NCBI GenBank assembly: GCA_009391275.1
Contig: VEXF01000004.1
Span: 14,047 to 78,046, forward strand
DNA length: 64,000 bases
Reading direction: 5' to 3'
From: SAR202 cluster bacterium AD-804-J14_MRT_500m
GTDB lineage: Bacteria > Chloroflexota > Dehalococcoidia > UBA3495 > GCA-2712585
Shown in pieces: positions 16,052-57,096 of this stretch; position 1 is the first letter of the stretch, and every line of letters starts with the position of its first letter. Under the pieces are notes generated by a model, which worked only from the letters and a program-made list of their open reading frames with translations, did not search any database and was not told the DNA's origin. The position numbers and the translations under genes are program-made.

Positions 16052-16157
16052 CAACCCCCCTTTATGTCAAGACTACGGATCAAAAAAGAGTTTATCACCA
16101 CCGCATCCGGTTGTTCAAAGTGGTGCGAGGTTGGCCGGATATTTGATTCTGGTTTTC

Positions 16158-16186
16158 TTGACACCAATAAGGCACTTTGCTAGCAT
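16158..16186 (+). promoter_or_regulatory. Promoter of the hopanoid operon
   Basis: A perfect TTGACA (16158-16163), a 17-base spacer and TAGCAT (16181-16186) lie about 70 bases before the polyprenyl synthetase ATG at 16258. This is the only strong promoter-like sequence I found upstream of the run of genes ending at 30330. Confidence 0.7.
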
Positions 16187-16257
16187 CGGTGCATCGTTTA
16201 ACTATGTATCCGGTGCGGCCCTTAGCTCACGTCTTTAGTCACTGATTCAAGGACTTA

Positions 16258-17337
16258 ATGCCTAAGGTAAAAACTCCCCAGTTCTCTTCGGGTCCGGAAA
16301 TTTCCAAGGCCCTTCCAAGCATTTTTGACCGGTACGGTGAAACGCTAAGCTTAGAGCTGCGTTCAGCGTTACACAACAAAGACAACCAAGTAGAAGAACC
16401 GCTGCGGTATCATATGGGATGGAACGGAGAATCAGGAGAACAGCTAACTACCCCAGAAGGACAAGGGAAAGTTCTTCGACCAACCCTTTGTTTGTTCGCG
16501 TGCGAAGCATTAGGTGGTGAATGGCGCTCGGCGCTGCCGGTGGCTGTTGCCCTAGAATTGATCCACAACTTCTCTCTCGTCCATGACGACATCCAAGACG
16601 GCGATACAGAACGACGACACCGACGGACAGTGTGGGTCATATGGGGCCAACCTAAAGCCATAATCGCTGGGGTTGGAATGCACTGCCTAGCGTACCTTAC
16701 AGCTCGCTCGCGCGCTCACGATTTCCCGTCTGAAACCAAGGTTCTCCGTGCTTCTCGGTTGTTAGTCGAAAGTAGTCTTGCCATGATAGAAGGACAGTGC
16801 CGCGATCTGCATTTCGAACAAAAGCTAGACATTGGGCTAAATGAGTATTTAGACATGGTACGTTTAAAAACGGGAGCTTTGATCCAATGTAGCTTAGAAG
16901 CAGGGGCTCTTATGGCCACAGATAAATCATCTTATATCGCCGCCTTTTCACTGTACGGGTCCCATTTAGGCCGTTTATTCCAAATCCGTGACGACATTTT
17001 AGGCATATGGGGTATTCAGAAAGAAACGGGAAAGCCGTCTGGCAATGATATACATCGCCGCAAAAAGTCATTCCCCATAGTTTTTGCCCTGGAACGTAGC
17101 AGCCTTGCCCATAGAAACCGTCTGATGCACTTGTATAAAAAAGAATCTTTCATAGACTCGGACATAGAAGAAGTGTTAGATATACTTGATAAATCCGGTG
17201 CAAGAAAGCACGCTCACAAAATCATCACTCAGGAAGCACGACTAGCCTTAGGTCAGTTGGATGGAGTTCCCTTATCCGTGACCATTCGAAGAGACGCCCA
17301 AGAGCTATTAGACTTCCTAATAGTCAGAAATTTTTAA
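16258..17337 (+). CDS. Polyprenyl diphosphate synthase, probably FPP-forming
   Basis: This 359-residue trans-prenyltransferase condenses IPP with allylic diphosphates. The first Asp-rich motif is DDIQD (110-114). The fifth residue before it is Phe, consistent with a short (C15) product by the chain-length rules for this family. The second motif is FQIRDDILGIWG, which lacks the third Asp, followed by GKPSGNDIHRRKKSFPIVFAL as in polyprenyl synthetases found in terpenoid clusters. It opens the hopanoid operon and can supply FPP to HpnD. The next gene starts 15 bases later. Confidence 0.88.
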   Translation: MPKVKTPQFSSGPEISKALPSIFDRYGETLSLELRSALHNKDNQVEEPLRYHMGWNGESGEQLTTPEGQGKVLRPTLCLFACEALGGEWRSALPVAVALELIHNFSLVHDDIQDGDTERRHRRTVWVIWGQPKAIIAGVGMHCLAYLTARSRAHDFPSETKVLRASRLLVESSLAMIEGQCRDLHFEQKLDIGLNEYLDMVRLKTGALIQCSLEAGALMATDKSSYIAAFSLYGSHLGRLFQIRDDILGIWGIQKETGKPSGNDIHRRKKSFPIVFALERSSLAHRNRLMHLYKKESFIDSDIEEVLDILDKSGARKHAHKIITQEARLALGQLDGVPLSVTIRRDAQELLDFLIVRNF

Positions 17338-17352
17338 ACCGGAGATAGCCAC

Positions 17353-18444
17353 GTGCCTACTGAAATATTATCCCCGTCAAAACCCAAAGCAGGAGCCGCC
17401 CAGCCGGTTACTGCAAAACGTCCTCTTGAACTAGGGCTAACGGTGGCCTCTTACATATTCCGCCAAAAAATTAAGGGGCGTAAACGCTTCCCCATGGTCA
17501 CAATGTTGGAACCTCTAGAGATGTGCAACCTGTCTTGTGTAGGCTGTGGACGGATACGAGAATACAAACCTGTGCTCAATAAAATGATGCCGGTAGACGA
17601 AGCATTGGCAGCTATAGAAGAATCTGGAGCACCGATTGTCTCTATAGCAGGTGGTGAACCAACCATTTATCCAAAGATAGACGTGCTTATAAACGAATTA
17701 GTGCGACGGAAATATTTTGTTTACTGCTGCTCTAATGGGCTCCTCTTGGAGCGCGTTATGAAAAAAGTTCCCCCATCTAAATACTTCGCCTGGGTGATAC
17801 ACATGGACGGTATGGAGAAGAAACACGATGAATCCGTAGACCGACCCGGTGTATATAAAAAAGCCGTTGCAGCTATAGAAAGTGCTCTATCAAAAGGATA
17901 TCGAATATGCACCAACACAACCCTTTTTCGCGGTAGTGATGTCAATGATCTACACGCTCTCTTCCGCCAAATGTCAGCAATGGGGGTAGAAGGATGTATG
18001 GTATCGCCTGGCTTCGACTATGCGGCCGTTGATGATCGTGATCAATTTTTGCTCAGAGAAGAGTCAAAGGAAGTTTTCAAGAAAGTTCTTGACCCTGAAA
18101 CAACTCAAGATATCCGCTTCTATAACAATCCACTATATTTAGATTTCCTTCGTGGAAATCGCGAGTATCAGTGTACCGCCTGGTCCAACCCCACGTACAC
18201 GGTAATGGGATGGAGAATGCCCTGCTATCCACTTGCAGATGAACACGTGAAAGACTTGAGCCAAGTAATGCATAAAGATGTTTGGGACCGCTATGGTGTT
18301 GGCAAAGATCCTCGATGTGCCAACTGCATGATGCATTGTGGTTTTGAGTCTGCCACTATTTTTGGCGCCTTAAAAAGCCCAAGGGATTGGATCACCATGA
18401 TTAGGTCTGGCGCCATAAGCAAAAGTGGACTTACCGCGAGCTAG
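17353..18444 (+). CDS. hpnH: Adenosyl-hopene transferase HpnH (radical SAM)
   Basis: This 363-residue radical SAM enzyme attaches 5'-deoxyadenosine to hopene, the first step of the extended (C35) hopanoid side chain. The cluster motif CNLSCVGC (Cys58, Cys62, Cys65) is followed by VSIAGGEPTIYP. A C-terminal Cys-rich segment (DPRCANCMMHCGFE) is as in HpnH. The GTG start at 17353 follows GGAG by eight bases. Location next to hpnG and shc supports the assignment. Confidence 0.95.
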   Translation: MPTEILSPSKPKAGAAQPVTAKRPLELGLTVASYIFRQKIKGRKRFPMVTMLEPLEMCNLSCVGCGRIREYKPVLNKMMPVDEALAAIEESGAPIVSIAGGEPTIYPKIDVLINELVRRKYFVYCCSNGLLLERVMKKVPPSKYFAWVIHMDGMEKKHDESVDRPGVYKKAVAAIESALSKGYRICTNTTLFRGSDVNDLHALFRQMSAMGVEGCMVSPGFDYAAVDDRDQFLLREESKEVFKKVLDPETTQDIRFYNNPLYLDFLRGNREYQCTAWSNPTYTVMGWRMPCYPLADEHVKDLSQVMHKDVWDRYGVGKDPRCANCMMHCGFESATIFGALKSPRDWITMIRSGAISKSGLTAS

Positions 18445-18452
18445 GAAGAAAA

Positions 18453-19169
18453 TTGATCGCAATAGTCGCTGCTATAAGAGAAGAGGTAGCCGGAATAAAG
18501 AGTCTGGAGCGGCAATCCTCAGGACAAGCCAAAGTCCTGGTCACAGGACCAGGAAAGGCGTGCGCTGTAGCAGCAACCGAAGAACTTGTCCGAAAACATC
18601 CCAAACCCCAAGCGATTATATCTACCGGATTCTGCGCCGGGCTTTTAGACGAGCTTAACACAGGGGACTTAGTTCTTCCCCGCAGACTAAATCTTGCAAA
18701 TGCCCAGAACCCACTGATAGTAGATAGCCGCCTATCGCAGATAGCTGAAGAATGCATCCATGAGAACGTGCTACCATACATGCGTCGAGATTCGGTGACT
18801 GTGCCGAAGCTATTAGCGACTACAGAAGCAAAATTAGAGGCAGGCAGATCCTACAACGCCCAATGTGCCAGTCTAGAAGATTATTGGGTCTGCTCGGTCG
18901 CCTCCAGCGCGGGTGTGCCTTTTTTATCTACACACGTAGTATTAGACACCTCTAGCCAATCTATTAAACCTCACATAGAACATTTGATGTGGCTCCGCCA
19001 GGAAAAAGGGCAACTCAAAGCAATTTTTCATGCTATTAGCAAGCCAATGGATTATCCCACTCTTTTACTCCTAGCAAAGAGAGCCAGGCAGGCCTCCAAT
19101 CAACTTGCCATTTTCCTAAGAGCTTTTGTCTTTAAAACACTTAAAGGAGGAACAGAGGAACTCGCCTAA
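18453..19169 (+). CDS. hpnG: Adenosylhopane nucleosidase/phosphorylase HpnG
   Basis: This 238-residue protein of the purine nucleoside phosphorylase superfamily begins IAIVAAIREEVAGIK and has ISTGFCAGLLDELNTGDLV and VASSAGVPFLSTHVVLD. By family and position it removes adenine from adenosylhopane to give ribosylhopane. The start is TTG 18453, with AGGAAG overlapping the hpnH stop. The chain is divergent, and without its neighbours it would only be called a nucleoside phosphorylase-like protein. Confidence 0.85.
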   Translation: MIAIVAAIREEVAGIKSLERQSSGQAKVLVTGPGKACAVAATEELVRKHPKPQAIISTGFCAGLLDELNTGDLVLPRRLNLANAQNPLIVDSRLSQIAEECIHENVLPYMRRDSVTVPKLLATTEAKLEAGRSYNAQCASLEDYWVCSVASSAGVPFLSTHVVLDTSSQSIKPHIEHLMWLRQEKGQLKAIFHAISKPMDYPTLLLLAKRARQASNQLAIFLRAFVFKTLKGGTEELA

Positions 19170-19181
19170 AGAGAGAATATA

Positions 19182-20165
19182 TTGAAAATTCTAGTTACCG
19201 GAGCAACTGGATTCATTGGTGGAAACCTAGTGAGGGCCTTAAATAACAGAGGGTATCATGTTCGCGCCATGGTTAGACCAAAGAGTGATACCTCAGCATT
19301 AGATTCTATGAAAGTCGAACGTGTCTTCGGGGACCTAACTGATCAGCCATCCATAACTCGCGCGGTAACCGGTTGCGATGCACTGTTCCACTGTGGTGCG
19401 CTATACAGTTTCTGGAATCCACGTCCGCAGGAGATGTATCGTACCAATGTCGACGGGACAAAGATGATTCTTGAGGAAGCTTTAAAAGCCGGTGTGAACA
19501 AAGTCGTGTATACAAGCACGGTTTCCACGATAGGGATGCCCGAGTACGGCCTAGGCACCGAAGACATGGAGGCGATTACGCAAGATATGGTGGGACATTA
19601 CAAACGATCCAAACTCTTGGCAGAACGAGAAGCGTTGGATATGAATCAGAAAGGTTTGCCCGTCGTGGTTGTGAATCCCACCGCACCCGTTGGCCCCTGG
19701 GATATTAAGCCTACCCCAACCGGGGCGATCATTCTGGATTTTCTACGCAAAAAGATACCGGCATATATCAACACCGGAATGAATTTGGTAGACGTTGAAG
19801 ACGTTGCCTTGGGACACATCTTAGCACTAGAGAAAGGAGAGGCAGGAGAACGGTACATACTGGGTAATAGGAACATGACGTTGAAGGAGATTTTTGATAG
19901 CCTGGCCGATATCACTGGCACAACAAGCCCAAGAATCAAGCTACCATTGGACTTGGTAGTAGGCCTTGCATATATAGATTGGCTGATCGAGGGCAAATTA
20001 TTTAGGAAAACCCCTATTTTGCCGCTAGAAGGAATCCGGGTCGCCAGAAAGCCAATGTATGTGAATTGTCAAAAATCCATTGAAAAACTCGGGTTTCCAC
20101 AGAATCCAGTGGACAATGCTCTGCAAAAGGCTGTTGCCTGGTTTTTCGATAAAAAACGCGTCTGA
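19182..20165 (+). CDS. hpnA: Hopanoid-associated NAD-dependent epimerase HpnA
   Basis: This 327-residue extended SDR has the NAD motif VTGATGFIGG at its N-terminus, YTSTVSTIG, and the catalytic pair in YKRSK. HpnA is a frequent member of hopanoid loci; its exact reaction is not established. The start is TTG 19182 after GAGAG. A second extended SDR of a different subfamily closes the same operon at 29371-30330. Confidence 0.88.
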   Translation: MKILVTGATGFIGGNLVRALNNRGYHVRAMVRPKSDTSALDSMKVERVFGDLTDQPSITRAVTGCDALFHCGALYSFWNPRPQEMYRTNVDGTKMILEEALKAGVNKVVYTSTVSTIGMPEYGLGTEDMEAITQDMVGHYKRSKLLAEREALDMNQKGLPVVVVNPTAPVGPWDIKPTPTGAIILDFLRKKIPAYINTGMNLVDVEDVALGHILALEKGEAGERYILGNRNMTLKEIFDSLADITGTTSPRIKLPLDLVVGLAYIDWLIEGKLFRKTPILPLEGIRVARKPMYVNCQKSIEKLGFPQNPVDNALQKAVAWFFDKKRV

Positions 20166-20203
20166 CCCAAAGAGTACACCAAGGTAGATGCTCCCAAGAA
20201 TAT

Positions 20204-22207
20204 ATGACTGAATTCGCAGACAAAATATTTAACGAACTTAAATCCGAAGTAGATTGGACTATACAACGTTGTCAACAATACATGCTCCAAATTCAATACG
20301 ATGAAGGTTTCTGGTGGGGGGAGTTAGAATCGAATCCTACCATGGAAGCCGAGTATCTTATGCTAAGCTATTTATTGGAACTAGAGGATCAAGATCGATG
20401 GACAATGATCTCCAATCACATCTTGAGCCGTCAACAGGATGATGGTTCGTGGGCACAGTATTTTAACGCTCCTGGTAATTTAAGCACGTCAGTAGAATGC
20501 TATTTTGCCCTGAAATTAGCCGGTATTCCAGCAAACAGTCCAAAAATGATCAAAGCTCACAACTTTATAATCTCCCAAGGGGGAGTCCAAAAGACACGCG
20601 TGTTTACTAAAATATGGCTTGCTATGTTGGGGCAATACGACTGGGCCCGCTTGCCCACCATACCACCTGAGATAATTCTTCTGCCCAATTGGTTCCCATT
20701 CAACATTTACCAGTTCTCTAGTTGGGCTAGAGCGACCATAGTCCCTATGAGCATTATTTTAGCTGAAAGACCTTGCAGACCCGCCCCACAATGGGCAACG
20801 ATTCCAGAACTCTATCCCCACCATGAACAACAGGCAGATCATTATAGATCCCAACACAAAACGATTTTTAGCTTAGGCACTATCCTTCACGGCATTGACT
20901 GGTTGCTCCGGCAATATAACAGCTCCCCATTAAAGCCAGGCCGAGAATATTCCAAAAAACTAGCCGGACAATGGATCCTTGCCCACCAGGAGGCCGATGG
21001 CTCCTGGGGCGGCATCCAACCACCTTGGGTCTATTCTCTCATTGCCTTGAAACATTTAGGATTCTCACTCGACCATTCTGCCATGAAAATAGGGTGGCAA
21101 GGATTCGAAACCTATGGAATACAAGAAGGGGACACGTGGAGAGTCCAAGCTTGCATTTCACCTGTCTGGGATACTTGCCTTACTCAAATTGCAATGCTCG
21201 AGTCTGGAATTTCGCCAAATCATCCAGCTATGGAACGCAGTACTCGCTGGCTAATTGATAAGCAAATACTCCAAGGTGGCGATTGGCAGATAAAAGCCCC
21301 TCAAACTCCCCCCGCCGGGTGGGCATTTGAATTTGCCAATAATAACTATCCTGACATCGATGATGTCTCTGAAGTGATAATGGCTCTTCACCTCGCGCGT
21401 CTCCCTGAAACCGACGACCTGAGCCGCAAAATAGCCATCAAACGCGCAGTAACTTGGCTACTTGCACTGCAGAGCAGCAATGGAGGCTGGGCAGCTTTCG
21501 ATAAAGATAACAATCACCACTACCTGAGCAAAATTCCCTTCGCCGATTTTGGCGAGATTTTAGATCCCCCTAGCGCAGACGTGACCGCGCACATCATGGA
21601 AGCTCTTGGAAAGCTGGGCTACGATAAAACAACTCCAGCCATAAATAAAGCATATCAATTTATAAGGACAGAACAAGAAGACGATGGTTCTTGGTTCGGA
21701 CGGTGGGGCGTCAATTACATCTATGGCACGGGTGCGGTTCTTCCGGCAATGAAAGCTATAGGCGAAGACATGTCCCAGCCTTATATTCAACGAGCACTTG
21801 AGTGGCTACGTTCTCACCAAAATTCCGATGGCGGATGGGGTGAAAGTTGCGGATCCTACGTAGATCCTGCCCTTAAAGGCAAAGGTGACAGCACACCGTC
21901 GCAAACTGCTTGGGCGTTGCTATCTCTGATTTCGGCCGGCGTACCTCACGATATATCCACAATCCGAGGTCTTCAGTATCTATGTGCCGAGCAAAATGAA
22001 AACGGTGCCTGGGATGAGCCATATTACACTGGTACTGGTTTTCCTGGATACGGATTGGGTGAACGTTTTAAAAAACTTCCAAGTCAGGGCCAACAAGGTT
22101 ACCAAGGACTAGACATGGAAGGCGCTTTTATGATCAATTACCATCTTTACCGAAACTACTGGCCACTTACGGCCTTGGGGCGATTCCAAAAGTCTATGAC
22201 GGAGTAG
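20204..22207 (+). CDS. shc: Squalene-hopene cyclase
   Basis: This 667-residue triterpene cyclase converts squalene to hopene and hopanol at the membrane. The proton-donating motif DIDD is at 384-387. QW-type repeats (QDDGSWAQ, QEADGSWGG, QSSNGGWAAF, EQEDDGSWFGRWG, NSDGGWGE, ENGAWDE) run through both alpha-barrel domains. Length and the C-terminal block GFPGYGLGERF are normal for bacterial Shc. It is the central gene of the operon. Confidence 0.97.
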   Translation: MTEFADKIFNELKSEVDWTIQRCQQYMLQIQYDEGFWWGELESNPTMEAEYLMLSYLLELEDQDRWTMISNHILSRQQDDGSWAQYFNAPGNLSTSVECYFALKLAGIPANSPKMIKAHNFIISQGGVQKTRVFTKIWLAMLGQYDWARLPTIPPEIILLPNWFPFNIYQFSSWARATIVPMSIILAERPCRPAPQWATIPELYPHHEQQADHYRSQHKTIFSLGTILHGIDWLLRQYNSSPLKPGREYSKKLAGQWILAHQEADGSWGGIQPPWVYSLIALKHLGFSLDHSAMKIGWQGFETYGIQEGDTWRVQACISPVWDTCLTQIAMLESGISPNHPAMERSTRWLIDKQILQGGDWQIKAPQTPPAGWAFEFANNNYPDIDDVSEVIMALHLARLPETDDLSRKIAIKRAVTWLLALQSSNGGWAAFDKDNNHHYLSKIPFADFGEILDPPSADVTAHIMEALGKLGYDKTTPAINKAYQFIRTEQEDDGSWFGRWGVNYIYGTGAVLPAMKAIGEDMSQPYIQRALEWLRSHQNSDGGWGESCGSYVDPALKGKGDSTPSQTAWALLSLISAGVPHDISTIRGLQYLCAEQNENGAWDEPYYTGTGFPGYGLGERFKKLPSQGQQGYQGLDMEGAFMINYHLYRNYWPLTALGRFQKSMTE

Positions 22208-22213
22208 GGTGAT

Positions 22214-22720
22214 ATGACCAAGACAGAAACAGCCAGCAGCAATAAACTTACCCAACTGTTAGACACAAAGGTGTCCATGAGGCTACAGATTTTTTCTTTT
22301 AGTATTGAAACTCAGGCTGCACCTGAATTTATAGATTTGACAGAACTCACCAAGAAATGTATAGAAAAGTCAGGAATTCTGAATGGATCTATTACTATTT
22401 TTTCGAAACATACTACAGCAGCCATTAAAATCAACGAGAACGAACCATTACTCATTCAAGATATGAAGAAATTTCTCGAACGCATAGCACCACGGAATGG
22501 GGATTATCTTCACAATGACTTTACGATCCGAACAGTTAATATGACTGAAGATGAATGCCCCAATGGACATGCACATTGCCAACAATTACTACTCAGCACC
22601 AGCGAAACCATTCCGATAGTTAACGGCGAGGTCCAGATTGGACAATGGCAAAGTCTGTTCCTGATAGAACTAGATCGTCCAAGAGCACGTGAGGTACTCT
22701 TTCAAATAAGTGGTGGTTAA
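22214..22720 (+). CDS. YjbQ family protein (UPF0047)
   Basis: This 168-residue protein has SKHTTAAIKINENEP, GDYLHND and NGHAHCQQLLLS, typical of the YjbQ/UPF0047 family. Some members show weak thiamine-phosphate synthase activity, but the true role is unknown. It lies six bases after shc and six before hpnC, so it is translated as part of the hopanoid operon. Members usually have about 130-140 residues; the extra N-terminal 25 here are polar. Confidence 0.85.
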   Translation: MTKTETASSNKLTQLLDTKVSMRLQIFSFSIETQAAPEFIDLTELTKKCIEKSGILNGSITIFSKHTTAAIKINENEPLLIQDMKKFLERIAPRNGDYLHNDFTIRTVNMTEDECPNGHAHCQQLLLSTSETIPIVNGEVQIGQWQSLFLIELDRPRAREVLFQISGG

Positions 22721-22726
22721 CTACCG

Positions 22727-23620
22727 TTGTCATCCATTGCAGATAGGCATATTGGTGTTTGGACCAAGTCCGAGTCCCAACAATATTGCCGGCAATTAGC
22801 GCGGTCTCACTACGAAAACTTTATAGTTGGATCTCGCTTACTACCACGTGAGAAACGTCAGCACGTATACAACATATACGCTTATTCGCGCACTGTGGAT
22901 GACTTAGGCGACGAATCAGACGGCGACCGAACACAACTTCTAAATCTCTGGGATCAGGACCTCGAACGCTGCTACGCCTCGACACCACATCACCCTGTTC
23001 TGCTAGCTTTGCAAGAAACCATTAACATTTTTAATATTCCAAAGACTCCCTTTAAAAAACTGATTATCGCTAACAAAATGGATCAAGAAACCAAGCGGTA
23101 CCCGACGCTACGAAAACTTCTTCATTACAGCGACAATTCAGCAAATCCATGTGGCAGACTTTTCTTATACTTGTTCGGTTACAGGGATGAACAACTGCAT
23201 TTATTGGCGGACCAGACCTGCACAGCGCTTCAACTAACAAACTTTTGGCAAGATATTGTCCGTGATTATACAATGGGTCGGATATATATACCCCAAGAAC
23301 ACATGGATACGTTTGGCTACACTGAAGACGATTTGAGGCAACGCAAGCTTAACCGTTCGTTCCAGGATCTTATGGCCTACGAATTAGACATTACTCGCCA
23401 GATGTTTCGCAATGGCTTAGCTCTTTTGGATCATGTCAGTGGGCCTGCAAAAACCGATATCGCACTCTTCACTCGCGGTGGAGTAGCCGTCTTGGATGCA
23501 ATCAAAACGCAGAATTACGACGTTCTCGATCAGCGACCGCGGATTCCCAGATTCCAGAAAGGGAAGATTTTTCTTTCCACCTGGGTTAGCATTAAACTCG
23601 GTCGTAAAATTAAAATCTAG
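22727..23620 (+). CDS. hpnC: Hydroxysqualene synthase HpnC
   Basis: This 297-residue squalene/phytoene synthase family protein has the HpnC signature HYENFIVGSRLLP. The first Asp-rich motif is TVDDLGDE and the second NFWQDIVRDY. In the HpnCDE route it converts presqualene diphosphate to hydroxysqualene. The start is TTG 22727. Its TAG stop (23618-23620) lies in the same reading frame as hpnD. Confidence 0.93.
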   Translation: MSSIADRHIGVWTKSESQQYCRQLARSHYENFIVGSRLLPREKRQHVYNIYAYSRTVDDLGDESDGDRTQLLNLWDQDLERCYASTPHHPVLLALQETINIFNIPKTPFKKLIIANKMDQETKRYPTLRKLLHYSDNSANPCGRLFLYLFGYRDEQLHLLADQTCTALQLTNFWQDIVRDYTMGRIYIPQEHMDTFGYTEDDLRQRKLNRSFQDLMAYELDITRQMFRNGLALLDHVSGPAKTDIALFTRGGVAVLDAIKTQNYDVLDQRPRIPRFQKGKIFLSTWVSIKLGRKIKI

Positions 23621-23640
23621 GCCAAATTTACTCCTGATCG

Positions 23641-23648
23641 AAAGGAGG
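23641..23648 (+). promoter_or_regulatory. Strong Shine-Dalgarno sequence of hpnD, pointing to a CTG start
   Basis: AAAGGAGG is the strongest ribosome binding site in the operon. Five and eight bases downstream lie two in-frame CTG codons (23654, 23657). No in-frame ATG, GTG or TTG occurs between the hpnC stop and codon 23900, far inside the conserved domain. Confidence 0.75.
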
Positions 23649-23656
23649 CCTACCTG

Positions 23657-24523
23657 CTGGAAATTAATGAAGCCTACGAAGAGTGTCGGCAAATCACTAA
23701 GCGTGAGGCCAAAAATTTCTTCTACGCTTTCATCACGCTGCCCGCGAACAAACGTAACGCGATATATGCCACCTACGCCTTCTGTCGTTACTGTGACGAC
23801 GCAGCAGATCAGGAACTAGATGCATCCAGAAAACTAAGTGCACTCCAAGATTTACGTTTACAACTTCATTCAGCCGTACAGGGAAGTCCAGACGGGCCAA
23901 TGTTCACCGCCGTGGCACACGCGACCGATTTTTATAACATACCATCACAATATTTCGATGAAGTCATCGACGGAGTCGAAATGGACCTTAACAAAACCCG
24001 ATATCAAACGTTCGAAGAACTCGAGCTTTACTGTTATAGAGTGGCCTCTGTGGTTGGACTTATCTGTATTCAAATTTTTGGATATGAGAGCCCTGCTGCC
24101 AAACAACACGCAATTGACCTAGGCATTGCCATGCAGCTTACAAATATAATTCGGGATGTGCAGGAAGATCTGGACAGAGGCCGAATATATATACCTCAAG
24201 AGGAATTATCTCGATATGGATGTACAGAGCAAGACCTTGTAAGTGGGATCCCCAATGAATCCACTAGAAACTTAATTGACTTTCAAGTTCAGCGAGCCAG
24301 GATGTATTTCCAACGAGGGAATAAGTTGTTCCCATATCTCTCGCCAAGATCTCGGGCTTGTCCAGCCGTACTTGCCCAGCTATATATTCGGATCTTGGAT
24401 CAAGTAGAGGCAAACAGTTTCAACGTGTTCAATGGTAGAATTAGTCTCAGCAAAAAAGAAAAACTGCTAGTCACCGCCACAACATGGCTCAAAAGTTTCT
24501 TTCCTCAAAAAACCCTCACATAA
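23657..24523 (+). CDS. hpnD: Presqualene diphosphate synthase HpnD (CTG start)
   Basis: The protein is 288 residues if it starts at CTG 23657. It joins two FPP molecules into presqualene diphosphate. The first Asp-rich motif YCDDAADQE and the preceding YATYAFCR are encoded upstream of the first ATG (23900), so a start at that ATG would remove an essential motif. The second motif is NIIRDVQEDLDRGRIYIP. The frame is continuous with hpnC across its TAG stop. A CTG start behind a strong ribosome binding site is the simplest reading; stop readthrough giving an HpnC-HpnD fusion is the alternative. The 3' end overlaps hpnE by 40 bases. Confidence 0.88.
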   Translation: MEINEAYEECRQITKREAKNFFYAFITLPANKRNAIYATYAFCRYCDDAADQELDASRKLSALQDLRLQLHSAVQGSPDGPMFTAVAHATDFYNIPSQYFDEVIDGVEMDLNKTRYQTFEELELYCYRVASVVGLICIQIFGYESPAAKQHAIDLGIAMQLTNIIRDVQEDLDRGRIYIPQEELSRYGCTEQDLVSGIPNESTRNLIDFQVQRARMYFQRGNKLFPYLSPRSRACPAVLAQLYIRILDQVEANSFNVFNGRISLSKKEKLLVTATTWLKSFFPQKTLT

Positions 24524-25857
24524 TTGTAATAGGCGGCGGTATATCTGGCATGGCAGCCGCATGCCATTTGTTGGACTCCGGATACCGGATCTCGTTGATA
24601 GAAAAACGTCCTTATCTGGGCGGCAAAGCATTTTCATTTATAGATCGGGAAACAGGACAGGAAGTGGATAACGGGCAGCATGTTTTTCTCGGGTGCTGCA
24701 CATCATACATCGAATTCTTGAACCAAATCGGCACTTTGCACCACGCCCACCTGCAGTCCAATATGGAAGTAACGATAATCGACCCTAACGGCAAATCCAG
24801 TAGATTAAGCACCTCTATACTCCCCAGCCCATTTCACTGTTTGCCTTCTTTTTTAGCTTATCGACACCTCAGTATTTGGGAAAAAGTATTGGGGATAGCA
24901 ACGCTATTCCGTCTCAAGTACACCAACAGAAGCCGCCAAGTCTTTCAAGAACAATCTTTTTACGATTGGTTAAAACAGAACCACCAATCTGACCATTCCA
25001 TAGAAAATTTCTGGAATATTATTATCAAAGCTTGCGCAAACGATGATGTCCAAAGTGTAGATGCCTCCATTGGAATGATGATCTTTCAAGAATCAATGCT
25101 CAAATCTAAATCCGGAAGCCGTATAGGGTATGCCAAAGTAGGATTGTCGCCACTCATGGGACAGGCCGCTGCCCGGTATATAAAAGATCGGCACGGACGT
25201 CTGCTATTGGGACGGTCAGTCTCATCTATCTTATTTGAAGATGACACCACTGTTACAGGGGTGCGACTAGATAACGGACAAACTATAGAGAGTGATGCTG
25301 TAATCAGTGCCATCCCACCAAATGATTTGGCGCCACTTCTATCTAGCTCAACCTGCGCACTCGCGTATTTTTCTAAATTATGGAGTCTTTCAACCGCTCC
25401 AATTGTGAACGTCCATCTATGGTATAACCATCCTGTAATGGACGATGATTTCGTGGCTTTTGTAAATTCACCCCTCCAATGGGTATTTAATCACGAAGCT
25501 ATGATAGCAGGCGAAGGTTTTGAAGGTCATCATGTCACTATCTCCCTCAGTGCGGCCTTCGATTACATTCACCTCTCTAAACATGAGATTCAGACATTAA
25601 TGATCCAAGCCATGGCTGATGCATTCCCATTGGCCAACACAGCCCAAATTGAGAGAGCAATGGTAATAAAGCAAAATACAGCGACTTTACGGTGTCTTCC
25701 TGGGACCAATGCGCTCCGACCATCAGCAACAACTCCGCTCAATAAATTATTTCTCGCTGGTGAGTGGACAGATACAGGGTGGCCTTCGACGATGGAAAGC
25801 GCCGTGCGTAGCGGCATAGTTGCAGCTGACGCCGCAGCGACCTCTATGAGTAAATGA
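24484..25857 (+). CDS. hpnE: Hydroxysqualene reductase HpnE (FAD-dependent)
   Basis: This 457-residue FAD amine-oxidase-fold protein has the dinucleotide motif VIGGGISGMAAA near the N-terminus, EKRPYLGGKAFSF, and the C-terminal FAD block LFLAGEWTDTGWPSTMESAV. It reduces hydroxysqualene to squalene, completing the HpnCDE route. The ATG lies inside the end of hpnD and its TGA overlaps the ATG of the next gene, so translation is coupled on both sides. Confidence 0.93.
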   Translation: MAQKFLSSKNPHIIVIGGGISGMAAACHLLDSGYRISLIEKRPYLGGKAFSFIDRETGQEVDNGQHVFLGCCTSYIEFLNQIGTLHHAHLQSNMEVTIIDPNGKSSRLSTSILPSPFHCLPSFLAYRHLSIWEKVLGIATLFRLKYTNRSRQVFQEQSFYDWLKQNHQSDHSIENFWNIIIKACANDDVQSVDASIGMMIFQESMLKSKSGSRIGYAKVGLSPLMGQAAARYIKDRHGRLLLGRSVSSILFEDDTTVTGVRLDNGQTIESDAVISAIPPNDLAPLLSSSTCALAYFSKLWSLSTAPIVNVHLWYNHPVMDDDFVAFVNSPLQWVFNHEAMIAGEGFEGHHVTISLSAAFDYIHLSKHEIQTLMIQAMADAFPLANTAQIERAMVIKQNTATLRCLPGTNALRPSATTPLNKLFLAGEWTDTGWPSTMESAVRSGIVAADAAATSMSK

Positions 25858-26852
25858 AAGCACTAGTTTTGGCACCGTTTTCGCCCTATGCCTTATCTCA
25901 ACTCCGTGGGATGATGGAGGTGTCTTACGAAAGTTGGACCAATACTCGGACATTGCATGACCCTACCGAACTCGGTCGTCGTCTAAATGACGAATCAATA
26001 GATATCCTATTAACAGAAGCAGACTTTATATTCGAAGAACTATTTGAAAACGCTCCACGGCTTAAATTCGTGGGTATTTGTAGAAATGAACTGGGTCATG
26101 TCGATATATCAGCCGCAAGTAAAAATGGAGTTCTGGTAGTTAATACACCTGGTCGTAACGCCAATGCGGTAGCAGAGATAACCTTGGGATTCATGCTGGC
26201 ACTTGCTAGACGAATTCCTAGTTTAGATGCTTATGTCAAGTTTGGGAAATGGGAAGATCCAGTTGCCCCATATTTATCTTTTAGAGGCATAGAACTTCGT
26301 ACCAACATCCTGGGGATAGTTGGGTTGGGCCGAATCGGCAAATCTGTAGCAAAAATTGCACGGTCCTTGGGCATGGAAGTACTAGCTTTTGATCCGTACG
26401 CAGGTGCCTTAGGGCAACGTATTGATGGAGCCTTACTTACTGACCTGGACAGCGTTGTAAAACAATCGACTTTTCTTTCTCTTAACGCACCAAGATCAGA
26501 GGAAACCACAGGGCTTATATCAGACAATCACTTAGCTTCAATGCCCTCAGGTTCTTTTTTAATTAACACATCGTTCTACGAGATTGTAGATGAAAGCTCC
26601 TTAGTAAATCGCCTAAACTGTGGCCCACTTGCAGGGGCTGCTTTTGACGTCCATCCTGCCCATCCCGTGCCACCTAGTAGCCCGCTCCTGAAACTCAATA
26701 ATGTTATTTTGACACCCCATATAGGGGGCGCAACTAATGAAACGATTGAGCGGCACTCAAATATGATCGTTACGGATCTACGTAGATACCTTCGCGGTTA
26801 CAAGCCAAATAATCTTGTCAACCCTGACGTGTGGCAAATGTATGACCACTAA
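25854..26852 (+). CDS. D-2-hydroxyacid dehydrogenase homologue lacking catalytic Arg and Glu
   Basis: This 332-residue protein has the fold of D-3-phosphoglycerate dehydrogenase: the NAD motif GLGRIGKSVAKIA (about 158-170) and TPHIGGAT with His289. The catalytic Arg of the usual NxARGxxVD block is Phe241 (NTSFYEIVD), and the catalytic Glu before Pro (DVFxxEP) is His270 (DVHPAHP). The two other homologues in this window (49491-51460) keep Arg, Glu and His. Ordinary 2-hydroxyacid oxidation is therefore unlikely. The ATG overlaps the hpnE stop (ATGA), so it belongs to the hopanoid operon. It may carry out different chemistry or serve as a binding protein. Confidence 0.8.
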   Translation: MKALVLAPFSPYALSQLRGMMEVSYESWTNTRTLHDPTELGRRLNDESIDILLTEADFIFEELFENAPRLKFVGICRNELGHVDISAASKNGVLVVNTPGRNANAVAEITLGFMLALARRIPSLDAYVKFGKWEDPVAPYLSFRGIELRTNILGIVGLGRIGKSVAKIARSLGMEVLAFDPYAGALGQRIDGALLTDLDSVVKQSTFLSLNAPRSEETTGLISDNHLASMPSGSFLINTSFYEIVDESSLVNRLNCGPLAGAAFDVHPAHPVPPSSPLLKLNNVILTPHIGGATNETIERHSNMIVTDLRRYLRGYKPNNLVNPDVWQMYDH

Positions 26853-28323
26853 ACTTCTTGCCATAGACTTGGGAAGCAGTCATGTACATGCTGCAGTATC
26901 AGATCTTAACGGAACACAAATCGGGTCAGCAGAATATCCTCTCCATTTAACGGCAGACTCTGAGGGGTCAGATTTGGCTTGGACAATCGATCCTGCGATT
27001 TTGATAAAAACCGTGGCATCCACAGCCGCTAGCGCATTAAAAAACGCTCTGGCATCATCAAATGAGATCGCAAGTATCGGAATCACAGGTCAACGACAAG
27101 GGGTTGCTTTTTTAGGGCAACTCAAACAAGACTTGCTCTTAAGTCCAAACATAGACATTCGAGCAGCATTTGAGGGTTTGGTATTACAAGAAAAATTTGG
27201 CACAGAAACTAAACGAATCACAGGCCACTTCCCTTTAGTGATATTAGCTCCGTCACGTCTAATGTGGCTCAGGAACCATAGACCTGATCTTTATAGCCAA
27301 CTTTCATCAATTTTGACCCTTCCAGCGTGGCTAGTCCATAAACTCACTGGCGTCTTATTTGATGAACACACTCTATCTGCTGCAACTGGCCTTTTAGATA
27401 TATCAACCCTAGAAAGACCTTTCTCCCTAATTGACAACATGGGTATTCCTCGATCGATACTTCCCCCTCTTATCTCATCTGGGGAAATAGGAGGGCAATT
27501 AACTAACGAGGCAGCTAAATTTTTGAATCTACGTCCTGGTACACCAATCACTCTCGCCGGTGCCGATACGCAATGTGGAATGTTGGGAATGGGTCTATCA
27601 TCCGTTGGCGAACTCGGCGTGGTCACTGGTTGGAGTTGCTCCGCCCAAGTCATCACAGGGACCCCTAAATATGATAGCGAATCTGATGCCTGGATTGGTT
27701 GCTTTCCGTTAGCAAACCGATGGGTGCTTGAGGCTAATTTAGGTGATGCAGGTCGGGCTCATCGATGGCTTAAGGATTTGTTCTTGAACCAAGACTCATC
27801 ATGGCAAGAGGCAGATAGGCTAGCGAGTGAGTCCAAAGATAGTGAGCTACAAGGAACTTGGACATTCCTTGGTCCAGGCCCAATATCTGCCCCAGCCGCT
27901 GGGCTTCATCGTGGTGGACTGTTGTTCTCTACACCTCTTAGTTATCAAGTTCCCGACGTCGGCCAATTATTCCAATCATTCTGGGAAAACCTATGCTTCA
28001 GCTTAAAGGCAAATCTTTCTTTGATCTGTTCTGAAGCACCCACACTACACCTAGGAGGTGGAATGGCGCGAAGCAGGCAATTAGCCCAGACATTGTCAAA
28101 TGTCTTAAACACCGAAGTTAAACGTAGTAAATTTCCGCACGTAAGTGCCGCTGGAGCTTGTTTGGCTGCCGGGGCCGCGGTTGGTTTAGTTGACTCTTTA
28201 CATGACGCTATACAAACTTACCAGCCTTCGTGGGAGCAATTTCAACCCGAATCCAACGCTGTCATGAAACTTGAAGACCGTTTCGAAGAATGGATCACTT
28301 TATACCAACGCCTCCAGGATTAA
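26842..28323 (+). CDS. FGGY-family carbohydrate kinase
   Basis: This 493-residue protein of the xylulokinase/gluconokinase family has an N-terminal phosphate-binding segment LLAIDLGSSHVHAAV and the FGGY signature region GADTQCGMLGMG with the candidate catalytic Asp. LHLGGGMARSRQLAQ occurs in the C-terminal domain. The sugar or polyol it phosphorylates cannot be named. I start it at ATG 26842, which overlaps the stop of the preceding gene; the frame extends to TTG 26815. It is followed by a class II aldolase five bases later, a pairing usual in pentose or acid-sugar breakdown. Confidence 0.88.
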   Translation: MTTKLLAIDLGSSHVHAAVSDLNGTQIGSAEYPLHLTADSEGSDLAWTIDPAILIKTVASTAASALKNALASSNEIASIGITGQRQGVAFLGQLKQDLLLSPNIDIRAAFEGLVLQEKFGTETKRITGHFPLVILAPSRLMWLRNHRPDLYSQLSSILTLPAWLVHKLTGVLFDEHTLSAATGLLDISTLERPFSLIDNMGIPRSILPPLISSGEIGGQLTNEAAKFLNLRPGTPITLAGADTQCGMLGMGLSSVGELGVVTGWSCSAQVITGTPKYDSESDAWIGCFPLANRWVLEANLGDAGRAHRWLKDLFLNQDSSWQEADRLASESKDSELQGTWTFLGPGPISAPAAGLHRGGLLFSTPLSYQVPDVGQLFQSFWENLCFSLKANLSLICSEAPTLHLGGGMARSRQLAQTLSNVLNTEVKRSKFPHVSAAGACLAAGAAVGLVDSLHDAIQTYQPSWEQFQPESNAVMKLEDRFEEWITLYQRLQD

Positions 28324-28327
28324 TATC

Positions 28328-29023
28328 ATGAGATTAGATAATCTGCATCAGGAACGATCGCACTTAAGTGAGGCTTGTAGACGTCTGGCCACAATGAACA
28401 TGTCAGAGGGGACAGCAGGAAACGCAAGCGTAAGGATTCCCGGCACCTCATGTGAAATGGTGCTTATAACTCCATTAGGACAACCGATGAGTAAAATCAA
28501 ACCCGAAAATCTCTGCTTGATAAACATGGAAGGTGACCCAATCGATGAGAACTTTCCACCTTCATCAGAGACTCTTCTTCACCTCGCAGCGTATCGGGCC
28601 AGACCAGAGATAACCGCGGTGGTGCATACCCATCCGAAATTTGCCGGAATCCTGGCCGTATCAGCAAAACCATTGCCCGCATTACTAGATGAGATGGTGA
28701 TCAATTTGGGAGGATCTATCTTAGTTGCAGATTACGCTTTTCCAGGCACCGAAGAGTTAGCAGATGCCGCTGTTCGAGTCCTTGGCGACCGCATGGCTGT
28801 AATACTACGTAATCATGGCCTTATCACCGCCGGGATGAACCTAGATGATGCTGTTTCAAACACCCTGTTGGTGGAACACGCGTCGCAGATTTTCGTATAT
28901 ACTTCACTCCTTGGAGAAACACATCCCCTACCTAACGAAATCGTAGAAAAGGAGCGGGAATTATATAAAATGCGCATCTCAGTTAAGCTCTCCAATCAAA
29001 AGGATTATGGTCACAGTACCTAG
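28328..29023 (+). CDS. Class II aldolase/adducin family protein
   Basis: This 231-residue protein resembles L-fuculose- and L-ribulose-phosphate aldolase/epimerase. The zinc ligands are all visible: Glu in PPSSE, HTH in VVHTHPKFAG, and His in LRNHGLITAG. It would cleave or epimerise a phosphorylated sugar made by the FGGY kinase next door. ATG 28328 is chosen since it gives the normal N-terminus; the frame opens further upstream inside the kinase gene. The 3' end overlaps the next gene by 17 bases. Confidence 0.87.
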   Translation: MRLDNLHQERSHLSEACRRLATMNMSEGTAGNASVRIPGTSCEMVLITPLGQPMSKIKPENLCLINMEGDPIDENFPPSSETLLHLAAYRARPEITAVVHTHPKFAGILAVSAKPLPALLDEMVINLGGSILVADYAFPGTEELADAAVRVLGDRMAVILRNHGLITAGMNLDDAVSNTLLVEHASQIFVYTSLLGETHPLPNEIVEKERELYKMRISVKLSNQKDYGHST

Positions 29024-29378
29024 TTTCATACTACGACGACTTTATGTTAAAGGCAGCCTCCTAGCCACCGATCAAGGTATTGAATTCCGGCTGCTTAACA
29101 AACTAGGCTCCGGATATGCCAAGCGACTGATGCCCATAGCAATTGATGGCGTTGAAATACCAATCGAGAAATGTGCCTTCCACGCAAATGGTTCTAAAGT
29201 CCTTTTTACTGAGATTACCGAGGATAAGCCCTTTACTATAGCGTTGAATCAGATAACAACCGTTGCTCTGGACGAGGTAAAGTTGAGTGACGGCCCTCAC
29301 AAAATTGTTATGGCTTTCGAAGTGCCCGGGCTCGGAATTATCAGATTCGACTTCGTGGACACCTTGTCCAATGGTTGA
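29007..29378 (+). CDS. Small protein of unknown function in hopanoid operon
   Basis: I do not recognise a characterised family. The 123-residue sequence begins VPSFILRRLYVKGSL, has no signal peptide or membrane segment, and alternates hydrophobic and polar residues in a way that suggests a small beta-sandwich. A single Cys lies at IEKCAFHA. Its start overlaps the aldolase gene and its stop overlaps the next epimerase gene, so it is very likely a real, co-translated gene of the same operon. Confidence 0.65.
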   Translation: MVTVPSFILRRLYVKGSLLATDQGIEFRLLNKLGSGYAKRLMPIAIDGVEIPIEKCAFHANGSKVLFTEITEDKPFTIALNQITTVALDEVKLSDGPHKIVMAFEVPGLGIIRFDFVDTLSNG

Positions 29379-30330
29379 TAATCCCCCCCCACCTGTCATA
29401 GCAGTCACAGGTTCTTCAGGATACATCGGATCGCGACTCCTACAACAACTTGAGAACGTTGAATCTATTGCCAAGTTGATAGCAATTGATATCAAACCAC
29501 TGCCAATGCCATTCCACAACATAGACGCATACCGCCTTGATCTTGCTCAGCCCATAGATCAAGTTTTTCACAAGCACAAGATCAGCACCGTAGTGCACCT
29601 CGCTTTTGACATGAGAGCAGGCCGAACCGCTCAAGAATCTCTCGCCATTGATAAGAAAAATATAGCAAGTTTAGAGAATGTCCTCATGGCATGTCACACA
29701 TTTTCAGTCCAACATTTGATCTACACTAGCAGCCACACAGTATATGGTGCACACCCAGACAATCATGTTCCTATTATGGAAGATACCAAGCTGAAACCGT
29801 TACAAGGGTTTCAATATTCCCAGACGAAAGCGGCATCCGAATTCTTGCTCCGTAGCTTCGCACACGAGAATCCTGCTATTAGTGTAACAATCCTGCGAAG
29901 TAGTATGGTTCTAGGACCAGCGGCGGTAAATTATGTCTCCAAAGGATTCCAAAAACCGTTTCTGCTGCGTGTCCTAGGATATGATCCACCGTTGCAAGTG
30001 ATACACGAGGACGATCTCACTGCCATTCTAATGCGATTCAGCATGGATCCTAGACCAGGTATATTCAACGTCGCAGGAGATGGTTATCTGAATTACACGA
30101 GGTTCGCTAAAATCCTTGAAAAGCCCCTGATCCCGTTACCGTCCATAATCGCTTATCCTCTAACCGAACTAGCTTGGAAATTAGGGATACAAAAAGATTC
30201 TCCTAGCATTGGGTTGAACCTGATAAGGTACCCAATAATATTGAGTACTGAAAAACTTAAGCAAGAAACCGGTTTTAAATTCTCCTATACTTCAGAAGAA
30301 GCAGTCGCTTCATACATAGCAGGGGTTTGA
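29371..30330 (+). CDS. NAD-dependent epimerase/dehydratase
   Basis: This 319-residue extended SDR has the Rossmann motif VTGSSGYIGSRL, YTSSHTVYG, and the catalytic pair in YSQTK. It probably acts on a nucleotide sugar or on a hopanoid-linked sugar. I place the start at ATG 29371, overlapping the stop of the small protein gene. It is the last gene of the run that began at 16258; 270 bases of non-coding sequence follow. Confidence 0.85.
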   Translation: MVDNPPPPVIAVTGSSGYIGSRLLQQLENVESIAKLIAIDIKPLPMPFHNIDAYRLDLAQPIDQVFHKHKISTVVHLAFDMRAGRTAQESLAIDKKNIASLENVLMACHTFSVQHLIYTSSHTVYGAHPDNHVPIMEDTKLKPLQGFQYSQTKAASEFLLRSFAHENPAISVTILRSSMVLGPAAVNYVSKGFQKPFLLRVLGYDPPLQVIHEDDLTAILMRFSMDPRPGIFNVAGDGYLNYTRFAKILEKPLIPLPSIIAYPLTELAWKLGIQKDSPSIGLNLIRYPIILSTEKLKQETGFKFSYTSEEAVASYIAGV

Positions 30331-30396
30331 ATGTCCATAAATCCTCCCTTATTTCCATTGACGCTGATCCAAAACTGTGCAATCATATGGCGTCTC

Positions 30397-30421
30397 ATTG
30401 TCTAGTTGACTACTAGACAAT
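30397..30421. promoter_or_regulatory. Perfect 10-bp inverted repeat upstream of suf operon, candidate operator
   Basis: ATTGTCTAGT (30397-30406) and ACTAGACAAT (30412-30421) form a perfect inverted repeat around the five-base centre TGACT. A possible promoter, TTGACT (30405-30410), 16 bases and TAGAAA (30427-30432), overlaps it, so a bound dimer would block transcription of sufB. An Rrf2/SufR-like iron-sulfur regulator would be a natural partner, but none is in the window. No T-run follows, which argues against a terminator for the upstream operon. The rest of 30331-30601 holds nothing else I can identify. Confidence 0.6.
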
Positions 30422-30601
30422 TAAGTTAGAAACGTTTTAACCAAAGGTGATCTCCGAACCAGCCAACATCGCCTGTTAATCATCCCTATATGTTGAGTAA
30501 TCGAATCACGGGGGGGGCGATCACTGCGAACAGGACGTCGCAACTGTTCGCACCACATACCTCCGGGCTGGCCCTCAGAGGATTTTACTGGTGACAGAAT
30601 C

Positions 30602-32098
30602 TTGAGCACTCAATCAGAATCAATTAAGAAAGAACACACAATGACCACCCCAAGTACTGATGTCGAGTCTGTCGCTGACCAAGGATACAAATATGGTTGG
30701 ACAACTGACGTAGAGACAGAGATAGCGCCCAAAGGGCTTAGTGAAGATATGGTTCGATGGATCTCCAATAAAAAGAACGAACCTGAGTTCCTGCTGCAAT
30801 GGCGACTCAAGGCCTTCCGATATTGGCTGACGTTGTTAGATAAGAACCAACATCCGCAGTGGGCAAATGTACAATATCCGGCTATAGATTTCCAAGATAT
30901 CCGGTACTATTCAGCACCCAAGGCCAAAGCTCAACTCGAAAGTCTGGACGAAGTGGATCCTGAAATACTCAAGGCCTATGAAAAGCTGGGCATCCCATTG
31001 CAAGAACAGAAACGTCTTGCCGGCGTTGCGGTAGACGCGATTTTTGACAGTGTATCTATAGTTACTACCTTCCGAGAAGAACTGGCCAAACACGGCATAA
31101 TTTTCTGCTCGTTTTCTGAGGCGGTGAAGGAACATCCAGCCTTAGTCAAAAAATACCTAGGGTCTGTTGTTCCTTACACTGACAACTTCTATGCTGCCCT
31201 GAACGCAGCTGTGTTTTCAGACGGTTCGTTCTGTTATATACCTAAAGGGATCCGCTGCCCATTAGAACTCACAACATATTTTCGGATCAACACGGCTGAG
31301 ACAGGACAATTTGAAAGAACCCTCATCATCGCTGACGAAGGCAGCTACGTCAGCTACCTGGAAGGCTGCAGCGCCCCGATGCGTGACGAAAACCAGCTTC
31401 ACGCTGCTGTGGTTGAACTGGTTACCCACGATAATGCTGAGATTAAGTACTCTACCATCCAGAATTGGTATCCAGGCAGCGAAGATGGAAAGGGTGGTAT
31501 CTACAACTTCGTTACCAAACGGGGCCATTGCAAAGGACAGGATTCCAAGATCTCCTGGACCCAAGTGGAAACTGGATCCGCCATCACTTGGAAGTACCCG
31601 AGTGTGATTCTTCAAGGCGACAGATCGATTGGTGAATTTTACTCTGTTGCCTTAACTAAAGGTCGTCAGCAGGCGGATACAGGGACTAAAATGATCCATC
31701 TGGGCAAAAACACTAGAAGCAAAATCATATCCAAAGGTATCTCAGCGGGACATGGCAGCAATACCTACCGTGGGCTAGTCCGAGTCATGCCCAAAGCGGA
31801 CAATGCTTGGAATTTCACCCAATGCGACTCTCTTCTCTTGGGTGACAAATGTGGAGCTCACACTACCCCTTACGTAGAAATTCGAAACAACACAGCCCAT
31901 CTAGAGCATGAGGCCTTCACATCAAAAGTAGATGAGGAAATGCTCTTCTATTGCAACCAGCGTGGAATTTCCAATGAGGCTGCACAATCCTTGATTATCA
32001 ACGGATTCTGCAAAGAGGTCTTTCAGAAACTACCGTTCGAATTCGCAGTTGAGGCTACTCGCCTCCTCGACTTGAACCTTGAAGGGTCTGTAGGTTAA
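30602..32098 (+). CDS. sufB: Fe-S cluster assembly scaffold SufB
   Basis: This 498-residue protein is the scaffold subunit of the SufBCD complex, on which Fe-S clusters are built. [11 protein letters not shown], the block [17 protein letters not shown] segment (here [13 protein letters not shown]), and [21 protein letters not shown] are typical. TTG 30602 follows GGTGA with normal spacing; ATG 30641 is a possible alternative. It is the first gene of sufBCDSU. Confidence 0.96.
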
Positions 32099-32109
32099 CA
32101 AAAAGCGTC

Positions 32110-34223: not shown

Positions 34224-34247
34224 GATCCACCGGGTGAAAGGCGCAAC

Positions 34248-35504: not shown

Positions 35505-35552
35505 CAACTCTCGTAAAATAGTCTGCTATCCGTTTCATAAGATACGTCAACA

Positions 35553-57050: not shown

Positions 57051-57096
57051 AGTCCTCTCCTATCTTCACCTTTCGCACCCATTGGAGGCTATAGCT

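Follow-up and report, generated by a model that had tools for sequence, protein, structure and literature searches.

In a 64,000-nucleotide stretch of contig VEXF01000004.1 from SAR202 cluster bacterium AD-804-J14_MRT_500m (hereafter, the window), a set of hopanoid (hpn) biosynthesis genes runs on without a break into five genes encoding a D-2-hydroxyacid dehydrogenase relative, an FGGY carbohydrate kinase, a class II aldolase, a 123-amino-acid (aa) protein resembling the beta subunit of C-glycoside deglycosidases, and a short-chain dehydrogenase/reductase (SDR). Judged from sequence comparison, the five genes behind hpnE may form a cassette whose substrate is the C5 side chain that C35 hopanoids derive from ribose, a reading to which we give a little less than an even chance. 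A functional link is indicated most strongly by the co-occurrence of this block with the gene for HpnH in genomes where the two are not linked. We conclude that the run, which is real and conserved, encodes a variant form of the hopanoid pathway that includes an unassigned step, and that it is more specific than what was proposed in a first-pass annotation made from the letters of the window and their open reading frames.

As that annotation had claimed, 14 plus-strand genes lie between 16258 and 30330, either overlapping or separated by at most 38 bases, the widest gap being that between hpnA and shc. The run opens with a polyprenyl diphosphate synthase (16258-17337, profile match) and continues with the radical S-adenosylmethionine (SAM) enzyme HpnH, the adenosylhopane synthase (17353-18444; TIGR03470, 423 bits, cut-off 225), a divergent HpnG-like nucleoside phosphorylase/nucleosidase (18453-19169; TIGR03468, 72 bits, cut-off 187), the hopanoid-associated SDR HpnA (19182-20165; 428 bits, cut-off 368), squalene-hopene cyclase, shc (20204-22207; 775 bits, cut-off 431), a YjbQ/UPF0047 protein (22214-22720, profile match), HpnC (22727-23620), HpnD (23654-24523) and HpnE (24484-25857). 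The last three also exceed their curated cut-offs, so that the nine-gene hopanoid set named at first is borne out by profile matches, with its HpnG-like member below the HpnG cut-off. Two overlaps then lead into the block, both as first described: hpnE ends four bases into the gene of the dehydrogenase relative (25854-26852; profile matches and alignment), which in turn overlaps that of the kinase (26842-28323, likely start 26842; domain and structure-family matches). The aldolase (28328-29023, likely start 28328; profile matches and alignment), the 123-aa protein (29007-29378) and an SDR of the epimerase/3beta-HSD type (29371-30330, likely start 29371; profile matches), possibly a hopanoid or sugar oxidoreductase, complete the run, and 271 bases separate it from the downstream sufB.

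The run thus resembles other hpn clusters with HpnH/HpnG side-chain formation in that it combines an HpnG-like gene with shc, hpnC, hpnD, hpnE, hpnH and hpnA, all six of which score above their cut-offs, and it differs from them by the five additional sugar-enzyme genes and by having none of hpnO, hpnI, hpnJ and hpnK among its 14 genes, an absence that the first-pass annotation had also pointed out. It differs too in that its HpnG-like protein scores far under the HpnG cut-off, as such proteins do everywhere in our class sample: HpnG exceeds the curated cut-off in none of the 197 genomes, though 51 of these have HpnH. A replacement of canonical HpnG by the block was therefore ruled out. Since HpnH and an HpnG-like enzyme are encoded, the expected products are adenosylhopane together with either ribosylhopane or its 1-phosphate.

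The gene order is conserved among relatives. A single scan of genome contigs using the kinase alignment returned 45 loci, with block assignments taken from BLAST labels rather than curated annotation; the named relatives are metagenome-assembled genomes of Dehalococcoidia/SAR202-type Chloroflexota. In 17 of the 45 loci, the dehydrogenase-kinase pair is preceded, in the same orientation, by squalene or hopene genes. The complete 14-gene order is repeated in three loci (L001, L021, L035), and a fourth (L019) has every gene labelled except yjbQ. Both hpnE and the dehydrogenase relative are labelled in 14 loci; in 12 of them, the distance from the stop of the former to the start of the latter ranges from -4 to +2 bases, and in the remaining two it is 281 and 404 bases. 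The 29 genomes behind these loci contain the 123-aa family in 18 cases, shc in 17 (16 over the cut-off and one, G024, in pieces) and HpnH over the cut-off in 17. The first-pass annotation was to be refuted by relatives in which the kinase-aldolase block is never linked to hpn genes; the block is linked to them in many Chloroflexota, and for part of the family, which is unlinked, the refuting observation holds.

This unlinked part is informative. Among 301 genomes of the phylum, 46 have matches to PF25653, the Pfam family of the 123-aa protein, of which we left out 17, comprising 16 weak matches in frames of ~870-1220 aa and one HMG-CoA (3-hydroxy-3-methylglutaryl-coenzyme A) reductase; only one of these 17 genomes (G248) has HpnH. 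By context, 21 of the 29 stand-alone cases belong to a block of dehydrogenase, kinase, aldolase and small protein, and eight do not, including one (L121 of G273) with kinase-like and aldolase-like genes nearby on the opposite strand. HpnH, present in 46 of the 301 genomes, was found in 20 of the 21 block genomes vs none of the eight others. Seventeen of the 21 belong to lineages whose kinase shares no more than 26-33% identity with the best labelled query; in the 9-20 kb read around their blocks, HpnA-like SDRs were the only hpn genes to be labelled. All 17 unlinked-block genomes nevertheless have HpnH, on another contig in 16 and ~1.5 Mb away in G236, a count that ignores ancestry and may represent only two clades, neither placed in our kinase tree.

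According to its predicted model (mean predicted local distance difference test score 88), the 123-aa protein has the fold of a C-glycoside-deglycosidase beta subunit, which it shares with the deglycosidases DgpB-DgpC, DfgA-DfgB and AgCarB2-C2. It differs from these in scoring 16.9 bits against the beta-subunit family CGDB (PF19906), under the gathering cut-off of 27.6 that two of five scanned proteins passed, in that none of the 14 genes of the run encodes a TIM-barrel (sugar isomerase-like) alpha subunit, and in having a class II aldolase as its neighbour. Its Pfam match is to PF25653 (61 bits vs 27), a family named HMG-CoA_red_N in which at least 1709 relatives are listed. True reductases bearing this domain exist (L114:983-2611 is an HMG-CoA reductase with PF25653 at its N-terminus) and the name suits them, whereas the window protein is free-standing. 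With no reductase domain, it was ruled out as an HMG-CoA reductase; an hpn-cluster relative (L003) carries ispG of the methylerythritol phosphate pathway. The Pfam name is thus misleading for stand-alone members of the family. In an alignment of 13 rows, LGSGY and GLG motifs are common to the block-type proteins and missing from six other stand-alone ones. A fusion of aldolase and 123-aa protein was sought and none was found in the open frames searched, the long open frames that surround some small proteins having no aldolase match. The weak PF25653 matches lie in L118:8557-11394 and 15 similar frames; the L118 frame, the only large one scanned, contains glycosyl hydrolase 2 N-terminal domains.

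What was first called a dehydrogenase homologue is indeed a family relative, and it retains the nicotinamide adenine dinucleotide (NAD) motif GxGxxG and His289, but it has lost two of the three residues (Arg, Glu and His) that we take to be catalytic in D-2-hydroxyacid dehydrogenases: Phe stands at the Arg position (241) and His at the Glu position (270), leaving the window protein with an incomplete set. Across 49 aligned rows, the NAD motif and the catalytic His are present in all, Arg in five and Glu or Asp in five, three of the five being Bathyarchaeota. The catalytic Arg of these dehydrogenases binds carboxylates, and its loss suggests that the substrate carries no carboxylate. The kinase has FGGY_N and FGGY_C domains and the invariant Asp of the GADT motif, which we assume to play its usual role in FGGY kinases. 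The nearest solved structure to its family is LsrK, the autoinducer-2 kinase (294 bits, the next best reaching 174). The window kinase nevertheless scores far under the NCBIfam autoinducer-2 kinase cut-off (167 bits vs 528), and there are no lsr-type genes among the 14 of the run. In L037 and L044, the FGGY kinase match falls within a 1314-aa open frame, a possible fusion. In the aldolase alignment, Glu, His and His are present in 44 of 44 rows and a last His in 43, one row being truncated; we take these four residues to be the metal ligands of FucA. Among solved structures, fuculose-phosphate aldolases match best (4.7e-30, vs 2.2e-9 for AraD), the single best being 6btd, presumably DrdA, a 5-deoxyribulose 1-phosphate aldolase. 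The two best NCBIfam matches are both below cut-off: an L-ribulose-5-phosphate 4-epimerase subfamily (144 bits, cut-off 251) and L-fuculose-phosphate aldolase (138 bits, cut-off 264).

The first-pass annotation had offered two readings, modification of the ribosyl side chain to give an unusual head group, or an unrelated sugar pathway sharing the transcript. The former is the better of the two, the latter being possible but less likely, given the conserved hpn neighbours, the presence of HpnH in every unlinked-block genome and the deglycosidase-beta-subunit fold. Its unusual head group finds no support, and the dehydrogenase and kinase also occur in Chloroflexota without hopanoids; cleavage of the side chain is a better fit to these enzymes than the building of a head group. 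HpnH and HpnG give a hopane carrying a 5-substituted 5-deoxyribose. We propose that this side chain would become a ketose, either through the dehydrogenase relative or an SDR acting on the polyol, or through isomerisation by MtnA encoded elsewhere in the genome (MtnA is present in 22 of the 25 kinase-bearing relatives searched). The LsrK-like kinase would then phosphorylate the terminal carbon of the ketose, and the aldolase would cut the product into dihydroxyacetone phosphate (DHAP) and a C32 hopanoid aldehyde, to be reduced or oxidised by an SDR. The beta-subunit-like protein would shape the pocket that receives the hopane skeleton, the role that the beta subunit of C-glycoside deglycosidases has for the aglycone, and it would probably partner the aldolase encoded beside it. 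In this exact form, a retro-aldol cut of the C5 polyol tail of a C35 hopanoid to DHAP and a C32 hopanoid with the help of a recruited deglycosidase-type subunit, we hold the proposal to be unlikely.

A model for such chemistry is the DHAP shunt, in which, according to PMC6079011, a kinase and a fuculose-type aldolase salvage 5-deoxyribose-type sugars by cleaving them to DHAP and an aldehyde. The run shares with this DrdK-DrdI-DrdA pathway a kinase, a class II aldolase of the fuculose-aldolase type and the expected product DHAP. It differs in that its kinase belongs to the FGGY/LsrK rather than the methylthioribose-kinase type, that it encodes only an HpnG-like phosphorylase and no isomerase, and that the dehydrogenase relative and the beta-subunit-like protein are added. 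The haloarchaeal pentose bisphosphate route was set aside as different: according to PMC9700705, it includes a ribulose 1-phosphate aldolase, but its kinase uses ribose 1-phosphate.

In the class sample, the small protein was found in 21 of the 197 genomes, HpnH in 51, shc over the cut-off in 49 and a strong kinase match in 35 (two weak kinase matches with E above 1e-100, G123 and G197, and the kinase-less G110 are outside the kinase table). Hopanoid evidence accompanies the kinase in 17 of 20 genomes with the small protein, three of them on the basis of cyclase pieces only, vs 2 of 15 without it; for HpnH alone, the figures are 14 of 20 vs 1 of 15.

Several observations weigh against an action of the cassette on the hopanoid side chain. 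These counts ignore ancestry and take no account of genome completeness, and on the kinase tree the small protein tracks hopanoids in at most one of the four independent pairs on starred branches, too few pairs for more than a low-powered test. In 13 of the 35 strong kinase genomes, hopanoid genes and the 123-aa protein are both absent while dehydrogenase and kinase persist, as does a trio with the canonical Arg in Bathyarchaeota. Conversely, HpnH occurs without the kinase in 36 of 51 genomes of the class and without the block in 26 of 46 of the phylum, indicating that the block is not needed for C35 hopanoids and is an addition to the basic route. Kinase and small protein occur with no cyclase or HpnH found in G076, G200 and G209 of the class sample and in G017, the only such case among the 29 kinase-locus genomes, and G110 has dehydrogenase, aldolase and small protein with no kinase or hopanoid genes. 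G209 is poorly explained by any reading proposed here: one run (L103) holds polyprenyl synthase, HpnG-like, yjbQ, hpnC, hpnD, hpnE, kinase, aldolase and small-protein genes, and its genome has no squalene-hopene cyclase match. In G055, shc lies directly beside the kinase, the aldolase and a 2-hydroxyacid dehydrogenase retaining Arg and Glu (L106), and no HpnH, HpnG-like or small-protein match was found in that genome. Some hopanoid-less blocks (L098, L100, L101) adjoin TetR and methyltransferase genes. The proposed partnership of aldolase and small protein sits uneasily with loci where their genes are 1.7 and 3.7 kb apart (L016 and L109) or in reversed order (L012). As for the enzymes, the altered dehydrogenase relative may be inactive, and an isomerase gene is present neither in the block nor elsewhere among the 14 genes.

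The 13 kinase genomes without hopanoids all fall into one clade of 17 rows in the kinase tree (SH-aLRT, an approximate likelihood-ratio branch test, 100), which groups with two hpn-linked rows (SH-aLRT 93). Read from this tree, which has unresolved forks and a root dependent on an outgroup of mixed origin, the simplest course of events is that the ancestor within Chloroflexota was hopanoid-linked and that hopanoids and small protein were lost together, once, in this clade. In the same clade, the aldolase gene adjoins in 9 of 17 rows, two further rows being cut by a contig end, and the neighbours include purine and quinolinate phosphoribosyltransferase genes, or DUF362 and radical SAM genes. 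Such hopanoid-less blocks are what would be expected if the enzymes served a general salvage of 5-deoxypentoses or nucleoside-derived pentoses, cleaving a free 5-deoxypentulose to DHAP and a small aldehyde, their place on the hopanoid transcript being explained by the release of such sugars in HpnG-type and radical SAM reactions, or by lineage history. We consider this somewhat unlikely. It accords with the best structural matches of aldolase (6btd) and kinase (LsrK), with the abundance of MtnA among the relatives, and with HpnG-like proteins (E up to 2e-19) in 5 of 16 hopanoid-less kinase genomes vs 2 of 125 other hopanoid-less genomes. A nucleoside hydrolase gene also stands behind the SDR in four loci, identified by a PF01156 scan in L033 (13352-14479, directly behind the SDR) and by clustering with that gene in L010, L014 and L036. 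However, a free-sugar pathway offers no evident role for the beta-subunit-like protein, whose presence distinguishes the hopanoid-linked form of the block in the class counts; the unlinked block still co-occurs with HpnH; and MtnA can already yield a ketose phosphate without an FGGY kinase.

A biosynthetic or stereochemical use, in which the aldolase-fold protein acts as an epimerase or in the aldol direction to give an isomeric or extended bacteriohopanepolyol, seems to us quite improbable. L-ribulose-5-phosphate 4-epimerase, an aldolase-fold protein acting as an epimerase, is the model for it and also the best, sub-threshold NCBIfam match of the aldolase, but solved structures favour fuculose-phosphate aldolases by a wide difference in E value. 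The dehydrogenase relative or an SDR may in that case be the missing ribosylhopane reductase: PMC12583986 treats the enzyme leading from ribosylhopane to bacteriohopanetetrol as not established, and the run holds two SDRs beside the dehydrogenase relative. The absence of the block from more than half of the HpnH genomes of the phylum means that it is not the general reductase. Least probable of all is that the five genes are merely old Chloroflexota neighbours with no common pathway, which would suit conservation within one phylum, counts uncorrected for ancestry and a tree test of low power, but not the overlaps retained at loci where protein identity to the window has fallen to roughly 30-70%, nor the persistence of HpnH in lineages where the block sits elsewhere.

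Hopanoid tails serve as molecular fossils, and C32 (bishomohopane) hopanoids are commonly attributed to chemical or diagenetic degradation. If the cassette does cleave the side chain, C32 hopanoids would have a biological source and, to our knowledge, the deglycosidase beta-subunit fold would be used for the first time on a membrane lipid. The known range of this fold, C-glycoside cleavage, is thereby widened to include a possible lipid substrate. A conserved cassette that co-occurs with HpnH across deeply diverged Chloroflexota provides named genes for an unassigned side-chain step with a testable predicted product, and suggests that Chloroflexota carrying it shorten or remodel the hopanoid tail that derives from sugar. 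We found no description of the block in the accessible hopanoid literature on SAR202, Dehalococcoidia or the side chain, a body of texts that includes few subscription journals.

Signals for transcription were sought by pattern. Between 25800 and 29400, where the first-pass annotation held that a promoter or terminator would refute a joint operon, no convincing example of either was found. Across 16000-35000, promoter-like sites are fewer than expected (19 vs 27.9 in shuffles) and terminator-like sites in mild excess (28 vs 18.9); plus-strand terminator-like sites at 26054 and 28162 fall within genes, and sites so located were not accepted as signals. Upstream of the operon, a sigma-70-like promoter candidate (TTGACA-17-TAGCAT) lies at 16158-16186 on the plus strand. 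Within the run, the first ATG, GTG or TTG in the hpnD frame does not come before 23900, a point deep within the conserved domain, and a CTG start at 23654 or 23657, preceded by GGAGG, fits best.

Downstream of the operon, 30602-36017 encodes sufB, sufC, sufD, a class V aminotransferase (SufS-like) and a NifU-type scaffold, and sufBCD are also found near or behind the block in L010, L014, L019, L021 and L099. Among the relatives, a single 529-aa frame (L005:6015-7601) encodes both an isochorismatase and a quinolinate phosphoribosyltransferase domain. Farther along the window, a class III aminotransferase (57082-58281) adjoins argininosuccinate synthase and probably belongs to arginine biosynthesis.

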